The position numbers and the translations under genes were made by a program. From Leucobacter sp. OLIS6 (lineage in GTDB: Bacteria > Actinomycetota > Actinomycetes > Actinomycetales > Microbacteriaceae): a stretch of 64,000 nt of DNA. Shown here piece by piece: positions 60,619 through 64,000 of this stretch. A model generated the notes under the pieces. That model saw only the letters and a list, made by a program, of their open reading frames with translations. It was not told where the DNA came from and made no database searches. Within the stretch, counting starts at the first letter, position 1; every line of letters starts with the position of its first letter. The stretch lies in NCBI RefSeq assembly GCF_002752355.1, contig NZ_MRAV01000008.1, positions 124,001 to 188,000 on the forward strand, given 5' to 3'.

Positions 60619-60673
60619 TCCGGGCGCCGCCCACCGACACGACATCGCACACGAAACGGAGAACACGAGAAAC

Positions 60674-61942
60674 ATGCAGCAGACCCAGCACGCGGTGGTC
60701 GTCGGCGGGGGCCTGATCGGCCTCTGCACGGCGCACGCACTGCTCCGCGACGGGCATCGGGTGACCATCGTCGAACGCGACCGCCTGGGAGCCGGCGCGG
60801 CCACGGGCAACGCGGGGGAGCTGACCCCGCAGCAGGTCGCGCCCCTGGCCTCGCCGAACACCGCCCGAGACGTCGTCGCCGGGGTGCTGACCCGATCCTC
60901 CTATCTGTCGATCGCGATCCCCAGGCTGCCCGCGCTCGCGGGGTTCGGGCTGGGGTTCCTCCGCGCGTCCGGGCGGAAGCGCGCCGCGCGGGGCGCCGAG
61001 GCGCTCGCGCAGTTCTCGCGGGCGATCCTGCCCTCGCTGCACCGGCTCGGCGCGGACGGCGTCGATCTCTCGGGCGGCGGCAGCGGATACCTCATGACCT
61101 GCGCGGACGGCGGCGAACTGATCGCGGCGCACGGGAAGTACCGCATCCGCGCCGAGCGCGGCTGGGGCGTCGCACCCGGTCCGATCCTGCGGGGTGGAGC
61201 GCTGCGCGAGCGGGAGCCGGCTCTCGCGCCCGGCACCGAAGCGGGGTTCCTGCTGCCCGAGGAGTTCTCGCTCGATCCGGTGACCTTCGTGGCGAGCCTC
61301 GCCGCGCACGTGATCGAGGCCGGTGCCGAGGTCCGGTCCGGGCTCGAGGCCCGCCGGCTCGGCGACGGCGCCGAGATCGTCTGCGTCGACCGCGAGGGCA
61401 CCGAGACCCGCGTCTCGGGCGACCGGGTCGTGATCGCAGCGGGCGCCTGGACCACGCCGATCCTGCGCCGATCCGGGATCCGGTCGGCGAGCATCGTCTC
61501 GGGCAAGGGCTACAGCTACACCGTGCCGGTCGCACGGATGCCCGCGACGCTCGTGCACTCGATCGACCGGCACTGCGTCGCGATCCCCATGCACGACCGG
61601 CTCCGCATCGTCGGCATGATGGAGTTCGACGGGCATCCGGAACGGTTGCACCGCGACCGCCTGGACGTGCTCACGCGAGCCGCCCGCGGCCTGATCGCGG
61701 GCGCCGACTGGGAGCACCGGACCGACGAATGGGTCGGGGCCAGACCCATGACCGCGGACGGCATGCCGCTGCTCGGCGCGGTGCCCGACCGGCCCGAGGT
61801 CATCGTGGCCGCGGGGCACAACATGCACGGGCTCTCGCTCGGTCCGGTCACGGGCGAGGTCGTCGCCGACCTCGTGGCCGGACGCGAGCCGACCGCGGAC
61901 GGTGCGCCCCTCGACCTCGCGCCGTTCCGCGTTCGACGCTGA
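60674..61942 (+). CDS. FAD-dependent D-amino-acid dehydrogenase-like oxidoreductase
   Basis: A 422-residue flavoprotein of the DadA/DAO group. The FAD motif is VVVGGGLIGLCTAHAL (residues 8-23), followed by ERDRLGAGAATGNAGELTP. The C-terminal second contact is GHNMHGLSLGPVTGEV. DadA oxidises D-amino acids, mainly D-Ala, to keto acids. Its place as the last gene of the importer and peptidase operon means D-amino acids released upstream can be burned here. ATG 60674 has only weak GAGA upstream. It ends 62 bases before the lysA promoter. Confidence 0.9.
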   Translation: MQQTQHAVVVGGGLIGLCTAHALLRDGHRVTIVERDRLGAGAATGNAGELTPQQVAPLASPNTARDVVAGVLTRSSYLSIAIPRLPALAGFGLGFLRASGRKRAARGAEALAQFSRAILPSLHRLGADGVDLSGGGSGYLMTCADGGELIAAHGKYRIRAERGWGVAPGPILRGGALREREPALAPGTEAGFLLPEEFSLDPVTFVASLAAHVIEAGAEVRSGLEARRLGDGAEIVCVDREGTETRVSGDRVVIAAGAWTTPILRRSGIRSASIVSGKGYSYTVPVARMPATLVHSIDRHCVAIPMHDRLRIVGMMEFDGHPERLHRDRLDVLTRAARGLIAGADWEHRTDEWVGARPMTADGMPLLGAVPDRPEVIVAAGHNMHGLSLGPVTGEVVADLVAGREPTADGAPLDLAPFRVRR

Positions 61943-61978
61943 TCGCGTCACATGCCGCCACACCCCGGCGCGGCCCGC

Positions 61979-61984
61979 TAGGCT
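61979..61984 (+). promoter_or_regulatory. -10 element of the lysA leader
   Basis: TAGGCT, the hexamer used by plsC, cutC and the RNB gene, but here 135 bases before the lysA ATG. The expected start near 61991 would give a leader of about 129 bases, unlike most promoters in the window. Confidence 0.55.
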
Positions 61985-62004
61985 GGACGAGTTCGTTCTG
62001 AGAG

Positions 62005-62073
62005 ATGCTCTCCGTTCGCACGGCTTCAGGGGCCAATCCGGGTCCGCTCGCCACCACCAGAAGACGCTGGTGA
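62005..62073 (+). CDS. candidate lysA leader peptide with terminal Arg run
   Basis: A 22-codon frame, ATG 62005 to TGA 62071, in the lysA leader. It ends TTRRRW, with codons AGA AGA CGC TGG TGA; AGA is rare in this genome. The three Arg codons lie in the loop of hairpin 62046-62079 and the stop is in its 3' arm. Its own ribosome site is weak (GAGAG directly before ATG). It stops 46 bases before lysA. Whether it is translated is unknown. Confidence 0.4.
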   Translation: MLSVRTASGANPGPLATTRRRW

Positions 62074-62079
62074 GCGAGC
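62046..62079 (+). promoter_or_regulatory. hairpin in the lysA leader
   Basis: GCTCGC pairs with GCGAGC (62046-62051, 62074-62079), and CACCAG with CTGGTG (62055-62060, 62067-62072); internal loop CAC/A, and apical loop AAGACG. No T-run follows, so it would act on translation or a Rho site rather than as an intrinsic terminator. Confidence 0.5.
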
Positions 62080-62119
62080 GCCGACGAGCACCATCCAGAT
62101 CCACCCCCAGGAGCGAACG

Positions 62120-63553
62120 ATGACCGATGCGATGCGATCGGACGACCTGAACGCCATCGACCAGCGCGTGTTCCCGCCCGCCGCCCGGCGCGGCAGCGAG
62201 TGCGGCCAGCTCAAGCTCGGCGGCATCCGCGCCACCGAGCTCGTTGAGCGCTTCGGCTCGCCGCTCTACGTGGTGGACGAGGACGCCGCCCGCGCCCGAG
62301 CGCGCGAGATCCGAGGGGCGCTGCAGCGCGAGTTCGCCCGGATCGGCACCGAGGCCACCGTCTACTACGCGGGCAAGGCGTTCCTCTGCGTCGAGGTCGC
62401 CCGCTGGATGAGCGAAGAGGGCCTCAACATCGACGTCGCCAGCGGCGGCGAGCTCGCCGTCGCGCTCGCGGCCGGAGTCGACCCCGCGCGCATCGGGTTC
62501 CACGGCAACAACAAGTCGGAACACGAGATCGCGCGCGCGGTCGCGGCCGGCGTCGGCACGCTGATCCTCGACTCGGTGCAGGAGATCGCCCGGGTCTCCG
62601 CCGCGGCGACCGAGGCCGGGATCCGCCAGCGGGTCCGCCTGCGCGTCAACAGCGGCGTGCACGCCTCCACCCACGATTTCCTCGCGACCTCGCACGAGGA
62701 CCAGAAGTTCGGGCTGCCGCTCGATCGCGCGGTCGAGGTCGTCGCCCTCATCGCGGCTGAACCGGCCCTCGACTTCGCCGGACTGCACTGCCACATCGGA
62801 TCCCAGATCTTCGCCACCGACGGGTTCCGCGAATCGGCCCGCCGCCTCGTCGGCGTCTACGGTGCGCTGGCCGAGGTGCTCGGCGCCCCCGTGCCCGAGC
62901 TGAACCTCGGCGGTGGCTTCGGCATCGCCTACACCCCGGCCCAGGCCGAGGAGGAGCCCGAGGTCGCGGCGATCGCGCGCGAGCTCGCCGACATCGTCGC
63001 CGCGAGCTGCGCCGAGGCGGGGATCCCGATCCCCAGGGTCGCGTTCGAGCCCGGGCGCAGTGTGATCGGTCAGGCCGGCGTGACGCTCTACACGGTCGGC
63101 ACGACCAAGCCGGTTTCTCTGCGCGGCAGCGACGCCGACGCGGATCCGGCCGATCTCGGGCACGCCGAGCGGCTCTACGTCAGCGTCGACGGCGGCATGA
63201 GCGACAACGCGAGGCCCGCGCTCTACGGCGCCGACTACCACGTGCGCCTCGCCAATCGGCGGAGCGAGGCGGGGGCCGCGCTCGTGCGCGTCGTGGGCAA
63301 GCACTGCGAGTCCGGCGACATCGTCGTGCAGCGCGACCTGCTGCCGGGCGATGTGGCCCCGGGCGACCTGCTCGCGGTCGCCGCGACCGGCGCCTACTGC
63401 TGGTCGCTGTCGAGCAACTACAACTACGTGCCCAGGCCACCCGTGGTCGCGGTGCGCGAAGGCGATGCCCGCACGATCGTGCGCGGCGAGACGGAGGACG
63501 AGCTGCTCGCGCGAAGCGTGTTCGAGCCGCTCCCGAACGGAGGAAGCAAGTGA
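62120..63553 (+). CDS. lysA: diaminopimelate decarboxylase
   Basis: A 477-residue PLP enzyme, fold type III, which makes L-lysine from meso-DAP. The PLP Lys is K86 in VYYAGKAFLC; HCHIGSQIF and the phosphate-binding GGGFGIAYTP follow, and EPGRSVIGQAGVTLYTVG is the substrate side. ATG 62120 has AGGAG at 6 bases. About 45 residues before the barrel are normal for actinobacteria. hom overlaps its stop (GTGA), giving the usual lysA-hom order. Confidence 0.97.
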   Translation: MTDAMRSDDLNAIDQRVFPPAARRGSECGQLKLGGIRATELVERFGSPLYVVDEDAARARAREIRGALQREFARIGTEATVYYAGKAFLCVEVARWMSEEGLNIDVASGGELAVALAAGVDPARIGFHGNNKSEHEIARAVAAGVGTLILDSVQEIARVSAAATEAGIRQRVRLRVNSGVHASTHDFLATSHEDQKFGLPLDRAVEVVALIAAEPALDFAGLHCHIGSQIFATDGFRESARRLVGVYGALAEVLGAPVPELNLGGGFGIAYTPAQAEEEPEVAAIARELADIVAASCAEAGIPIPRVAFEPGRSVIGQAGVTLYTVGTTKPVSLRGSDADADPADLGHAERLYVSVDGGMSDNARPALYGADYHVRLANRRSEAGAALVRVVGKHCESGDIVVQRDLLPGDVAPGDLLAVAATGAYCWSLSSNYNYVPRPPVVAVREGDARTIVRGETEDELLARSVFEPLPNGGSK

Positions 63554-64000
63554 ACGGATACCGCGATCTCCGCGTCGCACTGCTGGGCTGCGGCTCGGTC
63601 GGGGCGCAGGTGGCCAGGCTGATCCTCGAACAGGGCGACGAGCTCGCCGCTCGGGTCGGGGCACGCCTGCAGCTCGCCGGCATCGCCGTGCGCAGCCTCG
63701 ATGCCAAGCGCGACGTCGAGCTGCCGCAGGAGCTCTTCACCACGGACGCGGAGCAGCTCGTGCTCGGCGCCGACGTGGTGGTCGAGCTCATGGGCGGCGT
63801 CGAGCCCGCGCGCACGCTGATCCTGCAGGCGCTCGAGGCCGGGGCCGACGTGGTCACGGCGAACAAGGCGCTCATCGCGGCGCACGGCCCCGAGCTGGCG
63901 GACGCCGCCGAACAGGTCGGCGCGCAGCTCTCCTACGAGGCCGCCGTCGCCGGCGCGATCCCGATCATCCGCCCGCTGCGCGAGAGTCTCGCCGGCGATC
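63550..64000 (+). CDS. hom: homoserine dehydrogenase (3' truncated)
   Basis: Only the first 150 residues lie in the window; the frame is open at the right edge. The NAD(P) fold starts VALLGCGSVGAQVARLI, followed by the central VVVELMGGVEPARTLILQALEAG and the TANKALIA substrate segment, then AVAGAIPIIRPLRESLAGD. GTG 63550 overlaps the lysA stop. The enzyme reduces aspartate semialdehyde to homoserine, the branch point to Thr and Met, and thr genes may follow beyond the edge. Confidence 0.96.
   Translation, partial: MNGYRDLRVALLGCGSVGAQVARLILEQGDELAARVGARLQLAGIAVRSLDAKRDVELPQELFTTDAEQLVLGADVVVELMGGVEPARTLILQALEAGADVVTANKALIAAHGPELADAAEQVGAQLSYEAAVAGAIPIIRPLRESLAGD

Follow-up and report, generated by a model that had tools for sequence, protein, structure and literature searches.

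A conserved 31-nucleotide hairpin in the leader of lysA in Microbacteriaceae, a candidate cis-acting regulatory RNA

The window, by which we mean the whole stretch of 64,000 nucleotides from Leucobacter sp. OLIS6 that was analysed, carries at its 3′ end the gene lysA, encoding diaminopimelate decarboxylase (62120–63553, forward strand; NCBIfam TIGR01048, 419 bits against a cut-off of 297.9). It is followed on the same strand by hom, encoding homoserine dehydrogenase (63550–64000), whose start overlaps the lysA stop and which is cut by the end of the window; its product is 89% identical to the Hom query from genome G036, which NCBIfam names homoserine dehydrogenase. In the genome as a whole the order is lysA, hom, a thrB-like frame and a Rho-like frame, of which the last two were named by eye and from their resemblance to locus L163. 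A ribosome-binding site, AGGAG, is seen in the sequence just before lysA (62109–62113, forward strand), and the leader begins behind a −10-like box, TAGGCT (61979–61984, forward strand), from which transcription would start near 61991. The pattern TANNNT stands at the matching place in most rows of an alignment of Leucobacter leaders (A3, 37 of 41 distinct leaders, with L002, L104, L108, and L160 excluded), and a consensus scan of 61850–62250 returned neither a sigma-70 promoter nor a terminator-like site. The frame 5′ of the leader (60671–61942) resembles a D-amino-acid dehydrogenase-like oxidoreductase, at a score below the family cut-off, and many relatives have argS in this place.

Several features, all on the forward strand, can be mapped within this leader. 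The most 5′ is a hairpin of the Leucobacter type, GAGAG-AUG-CUCUC (62000–62012), recovered from alignment A3 with RNAalifold, in which the pair 29-39 shows a double-sided change in 17 of the 37 sequences and is broken in 7, and the pair 27-41 shows a double-sided change in 3. Downstream lies the feature that is central to this article, a 31-nt core with the consensus GGCUUCAGGGRCCAANCCGGGUYCGCUCGCC, present in the window at 62022–62052 as the hairpin GGC-UUC-AG-GGGCC-AAUCCG-GGUCC-G-CU-C-GCC, which was identified by two covariance models and by folding. Its covarying stem (62030–62034 with 62041–62045) encloses the loop AAUCCG (62035–62040). The 3′ strand of the core, GCUCGCC (62046–62052), is referred to here as the switching strand, as it can pair within the core hairpin and, alternatively, with a downstream partner, two states that would exclude one another, judging from their overlap; the downstream pairing in the window is an alternative hairpin between GCUCGC (62046–62051) and GCGAGC (62074–62079). 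Folded as a whole, the leader is ordinary (z of −1.65, with 14 of 200 shuffles folding at least as well).

The same region also holds an open frame of 22 codons, from an ATG at 62005 to a TGA at 62073, that ends AGA AGA CGC TGG TGA, and the earlier note had proposed that it encodes an arginine-sensing leader peptide, on which a ribosome stalled at AGA AGA would reshape the hairpin. Much of what that proposal described is borne out: the frame, its arginine-rich ending, and the hairpin are present, the hairpin being recovered by folding as well, AGA is indeed rare (one of 112 arginine codons in three window genes), and an arginine-rich end (at least three arginines in the last five codons) arises in only 0.7% of shuffles, in a test chosen after the feature had been seen. 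Of 2000 base shuffles, 31.8% produce a closed frame of at least 15 codons. The start was rightly called weak, as the ATG sits in the loop of the GAGAG-AUG-CUCUC hairpin with no well-placed ribosome site 5′ of it. Among 139 distinct leaders, AGAAGA follows the core in two, one of which is the window’s own type, and neither the frame nor its start is conserved. Start-initiated frames cross the core in 28 of the 139 leaders (7 of 43 from Leucobacter and 21 of 96 others), in all three reading frames, and the window’s frame is the commonest of these (17 of 28); the residues that it has in common, ASGxxPGxLA, are explained by conservation of the RNA itself. Start codons (ATG, GTG, or TTG) inside the core are found in two of the 139 leaders, and in 34 leaders a −10-like box stands so near the core that the mRNA would probably start there, which would leave no room for a leader peptide; in Leucobacter room is available, yet no frame is conserved. 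On the strength of this comparison, the attenuator was discarded as a very improbable explanation and the window frame is judged to be due to chance. When relatives are compared, a refuting test that the earlier note itself had proposed, the base of the hairpin is kept (in 30 of 41 Leucobacter leaders) and the frame is not, and of the earlier reading a conserved, structured lysA leader stands while arginine stalling falls. The 31-nt core, which that note did not mention, overlaps both the frame and the hairpin and is by far the stronger feature.

The distribution of the core was determined with two covariance models. The first (R1, 33 positions) matches 204 of 398 Microbacteriaceae genomes, in 54 of 85 genera, at E ≤ 0.01, and the second (R2, built from 31 distinct cores) matches 195 of the 398, in 49 of 85 genera, at E ≤ 1e-6, a count that includes one probable chance match, in G366 at a locus opposite argS (L205). 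The matches in L304–L309 were likewise treated as chance, and so was that in L165, which falls in a response-regulator-like coding sequence. Among the genome rows listed, more than one match was found in G293, G327, and G334, and a matching genome nearly always has a single site (E ≤ 1e-6). A DNA search with the window leader found matches in 34 of 37 genomes of the same genus, its own included, with G007 and G024 matching only weakly and elsewhere; several of these matches consist of an identical block near 62012–62055, and not of the arginine codons. The block precedes lysA also in Leifsonia, Diaminobutyricibacter, Cryobacterium, Agromyces, Amnibacterium, and further relatives. Among the matches listed, copies before lysA or hom score 41.5–60.5 bits, and those beyond the Microbacteriaceae reach at most 26 bits (297 genomes of the order and 296 of the phylum). 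Divergent copies in distant relatives could be hidden in this background, because a divergent copy within the family, before lysA of G216, itself scores only 21.7 bits.

Loci that lack the core are equally part of this picture. With filters off, the highest score at ten lysA loci of nine Leucobacter genomes is 12.2 bits. Six of the nine (L113, L115, L123, L140, L147, and L156) have a −10-like box nearly at the lysA start codon, and the lysA mRNA is probably leaderless in these; in the remaining three a leader is present that does not contain the core. Since the element is missing from roughly half of the family genomes sampled, and from several of Leucobacter, it is dispensable, though conserved within its clades. 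The lysA leaders of Microbacterium and of relatives similar to it (L013, L014, L021, L023, L024, and L029) have no hairpin and share instead the motif CGATTGGT, situated a few bases 5′ of the lysA start codon at the expected ribosome-binding site.

The fold of the core was derived from an alignment of 31 of 32 distinct sequences (A2), from which the L241 type was excluded for an insertion; the shortened upstream core of G009 was not among the 32. RNAalifold returns a single hairpin, consisting of a closing helix GGC:GCC, an internal loop UUC/C, a helix AG:CU, a bulged G, a 5-bp stem, and a hexaloop AANCCG, in which column 16 takes all four bases and CCG is invariant. In the 5-bp stem 154 of 155 cells are paired, and three of the five pairs are double-changed (GC/GU/AU, AU/GU/GC, and CG/UG/UA). 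The number of double-changed cells is 14 compared with 4.4 in shuffles, none of 500 shuffles reaching 14, though these shuffles ignore relatedness. When the stem partner is shifted by −1, 80.6% of cells still pair and no double change is seen; a shift of +1 leaves 50.3% paired, with nine double-changed cells. Other measures are unexceptional: the count of double-changed pairs (3 versus 2.1) is reached by 155 of 500 shuffles, and that of further pair types by 241 of 500. In the closing helix the only variation is by one-sided wobble, and the first alignment, of 22 core sequences (A1), gave no clear excess of covariation. Support for the stem from covariation thus appears good, but it falls short of formal proof because the shuffles leave relatedness uncorrected.

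The position of the element relative to putative promoters varies between groups. Distances between TANNNT and the core peak at 6–8 nt, and near 35–38 nt in Leucobacter. A TANNNT box ends 6–8 nt 5′ of the core in 34 of 139 distinct leaders (mean of 2.9 and maximum of 9 in 200 shuffles), none of them from Leucobacter, in which the box lies near 35–38 nt upstream. Judging from this spacing, the mRNA of those 34 leaders probably starts at the hairpin.

Pairing of the switching strand outside the core likewise takes different forms. For this comparison 131 leaders were divided into 86 of the non-Leucobacter type and 45 of the Leucobacter type by locus identifiers and upstream signature, a division in which a few may be misplaced. 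The sequence G[UC]GAG, an unusual ribosome site to which the switching strand is complementary, occurs before the start codon in 58 of the 86 and in 3 of the 45. Between the ribosome site and the switching strand, predicted pairing averages 0.263, compared with 0.075 when spacers are shuffled (n = 84, two of the 86 being left out for short spacers; Wilcoxon p = 2.7e-4). It exceeds the leader’s own control in only 44 of the 84, and a helix reaches p < 0.05 in 22 of the 124 leaders tested among the 131, so the presumed translational step is not uniform. Of the 139 leaders, 24 have CUCAC directly 3′ of the core, and GUGAGG occurs downstream in 22 of these; in L289, L273, and L182 the letters have changed and complementarity is kept. 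Leucobacter leaders instead have a 6-bp partner of GCUCGC 10–55 nt downstream, in 30 of 41 distinct leaders compared with 13.6% of base shuffles, and in the alignment of 37 this GCUCGC/GCGAGC pairing persists via one-sided wobbles. The apical part of the alternative hairpin, where the arginine codons lie, is variable in Leucobacter, and the hairpin leaves the ribosome site uncovered. Sequestration of the Leucobacter ribosome site by GUUCGUUC or CGUUCGC, which occurs in the window fold, was considered and rejected, the partner being missing in several relatives.

The genes that follow the element were tabulated for the 84 distinct copies whose downstream sequence extends 1,950 nt or more. Seventy-nine precede lysA-hom, four precede hom alone, and one, the upstream copy of G009, precedes neither; hom thus lies downstream in the same orientation in 83 of the 84. 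The 79 lysA-hom copies are not independent evidence for a connection with hom, because lysA is followed by hom also in 19 of 19 named Microbacteriaceae loci in which no clear element is seen (L008 among them has a divergent copy). Independent evidence comes from two exceptional lineages. In G036 the end of lysA is followed by inverted repeats and then by a fresh −10-like box and an element before hom. The genus g66 has three extra hom copies, spread over two genomes, each with an element and each preceded by a 35-codon frame resembling the start of lysA, whose TGA overlaps the hom ATG in all three (L292, L293, and L294, near 1003–1180). This layout of the paralogues suggests selection for regulated, coupled initiation. 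In one of the three, G334:C1, the Hom match is in two pieces and the gene may be broken, the copy in two pieces being the one behind L293; beside another, G334:C3, lies a protein like homoserine/threonine-efflux proteins, cut by the end of the locus and below the family cut-off.

The element has some features in common with characterised leader RNAs and differs from each of them. Small translational riboswitches of the preQ1-I type, of about 31–34 nt, are able to sequester a ribosome-binding site; the core is of similar size, but it has no match in Rfam and occurs in a different gene context. Iron-responsive elements are short protein-binding hairpins near the 5′ end of mRNAs, with a hexaloop and a bulge, and the core is a hairpin of similar outline, but bacterial, with a different loop, and not known to bind a protein. 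The trp, thr, and his leaders are ribosome-mediated attenuators of amino-acid biosynthesis operons that employ alternative hairpins, and so, it appears, does the lysA leader, although it has neither a conserved peptide nor a terminator-like site (61850–62250), the latter being dispensable for attenuators that act on translation. The lysine riboswitch is described as a leader RNA before lysine-pathway genes that include lysA (PMC5584792). The leader studied here likewise stands ahead of such genes, but the lysine riboswitch model RF00168 has 182 positions compared with the 31 nt of the core and gives no match in the window leader, as the earlier note had anticipated, nor in any of 120 family genomes searched with stricter filters, under which the control was detected in 4 of 14 known genomes. 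No family in Rfam 15 matched the window leader or ten loci at the gathering threshold, or the leader at E up to 10, and the two matches in the scan of the window are chance matches outside the leader. No published description of the element was found in the open-access literature searched, an absence that carries little weight in a search of open papers; judged by Rfam 15 and this literature, the element is probably undescribed.

Taken together, these observations are best explained if the lysA leader is a cis-acting regulatory RNA that controls translation of lysA-hom-thrB through a strand switch, a reading to which we assign a probability of roughly 0.6. The compact 31-nt hairpin, apparently at the mRNA 5′ end in many relatives, would use its 3′ strand GCUCGCC either to close itself or to pair with a partner downstream, which in many genera would include the ribosome-binding site (GUGAGG) and in Leucobacter would be GCGAGC. 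A signal binding the conserved loop, bulge, and internal loop could shift the balance between these states and with it the level of lysA translation, which hom and thrB would follow through coupling. Our first guess for the signal is an amino acid of the aspartate family (threonine/homoserine or lysine), and our second an enzyme encoded by the operon that binds its own mRNA. In its more specific form, as a very small riboswitch class that senses an aspartate-family amino acid and releases or occludes the lysA ribosome-binding site of the Microbacteriaceae lysA-hom-thrB operon, the proposal is put forward only tentatively. The size of 31 nt counts against a metabolite sensor, for which it is small.

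Other explanations share part of this evidence. The hairpin might be bound at its hexaloop and bulge by an operon enzyme or another RNA-binding protein that blocks or permits translation, much as iron-responsive elements or autoregulating enzymes do, a possibility that we hold in minor but real regard. Such a putative protein would suit a single hairpin of small size whose hexaloop, bulge, and internal loop are conserved, that mostly occurs once in a genome, next to the operon it would control, and that has hom 3′ of 83 of 84 copies; against it, the elements of G036 and g66 do not stand directly before a gene for LysA. If the element instead served as a constitutive 5′ stabiliser or translation enhancer that responds to no signal, its frequent position at the inferred mRNA 5′ end and the lack of any matching RNA family would be accounted for; this is unlikely, as the invariant loop, bulge, and internal loop exceed the needs of a stabilising stem and one strand is common to alternative pairings. 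That the core is a DNA operator, a transcription-factor site just 3′ of the promoter, is in our view quite improbable. Strong conservation close to a −10-like box, seen in 34 of the 139 leaders, speaks for it, but the compensatory double changes and kept G-U/U-G wobbles argue for RNA rather than a DNA operator, the spacing to the box differs between groups, and the site is nearly always single in a genome (E ≤ 1e-6).

If the element is functional, about half of the genomes sampled from a large family of actinobacteria carry a regulatory RNA that is so far unlisted. It stands where the synthesis of lysine, threonine, and methionine branches, in a family in which none of 120 genomes gave a lysine riboswitch. 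Its occurrence before hom without lysA in two lineages is a hint toward threonine/homoserine, and either outcome, a new small aptamer for an amino acid or an enzyme reading the mRNA that encodes it, would, if true, be of general interest.

An unusual arrangement is seen in G009, where two copies of the element lie about 4.4 kb apart (L164, 3024–3089 and 7438–7475) between an oxidoreductase gene and lysA. They flank frames resembling a regulator, an alcohol dehydrogenase, and an APC transporter, all named by eye, as if the segment had been inserted at the element or had duplicated it. The oxidoreductase-like frame upstream is similar to the one that precedes the element in the window.
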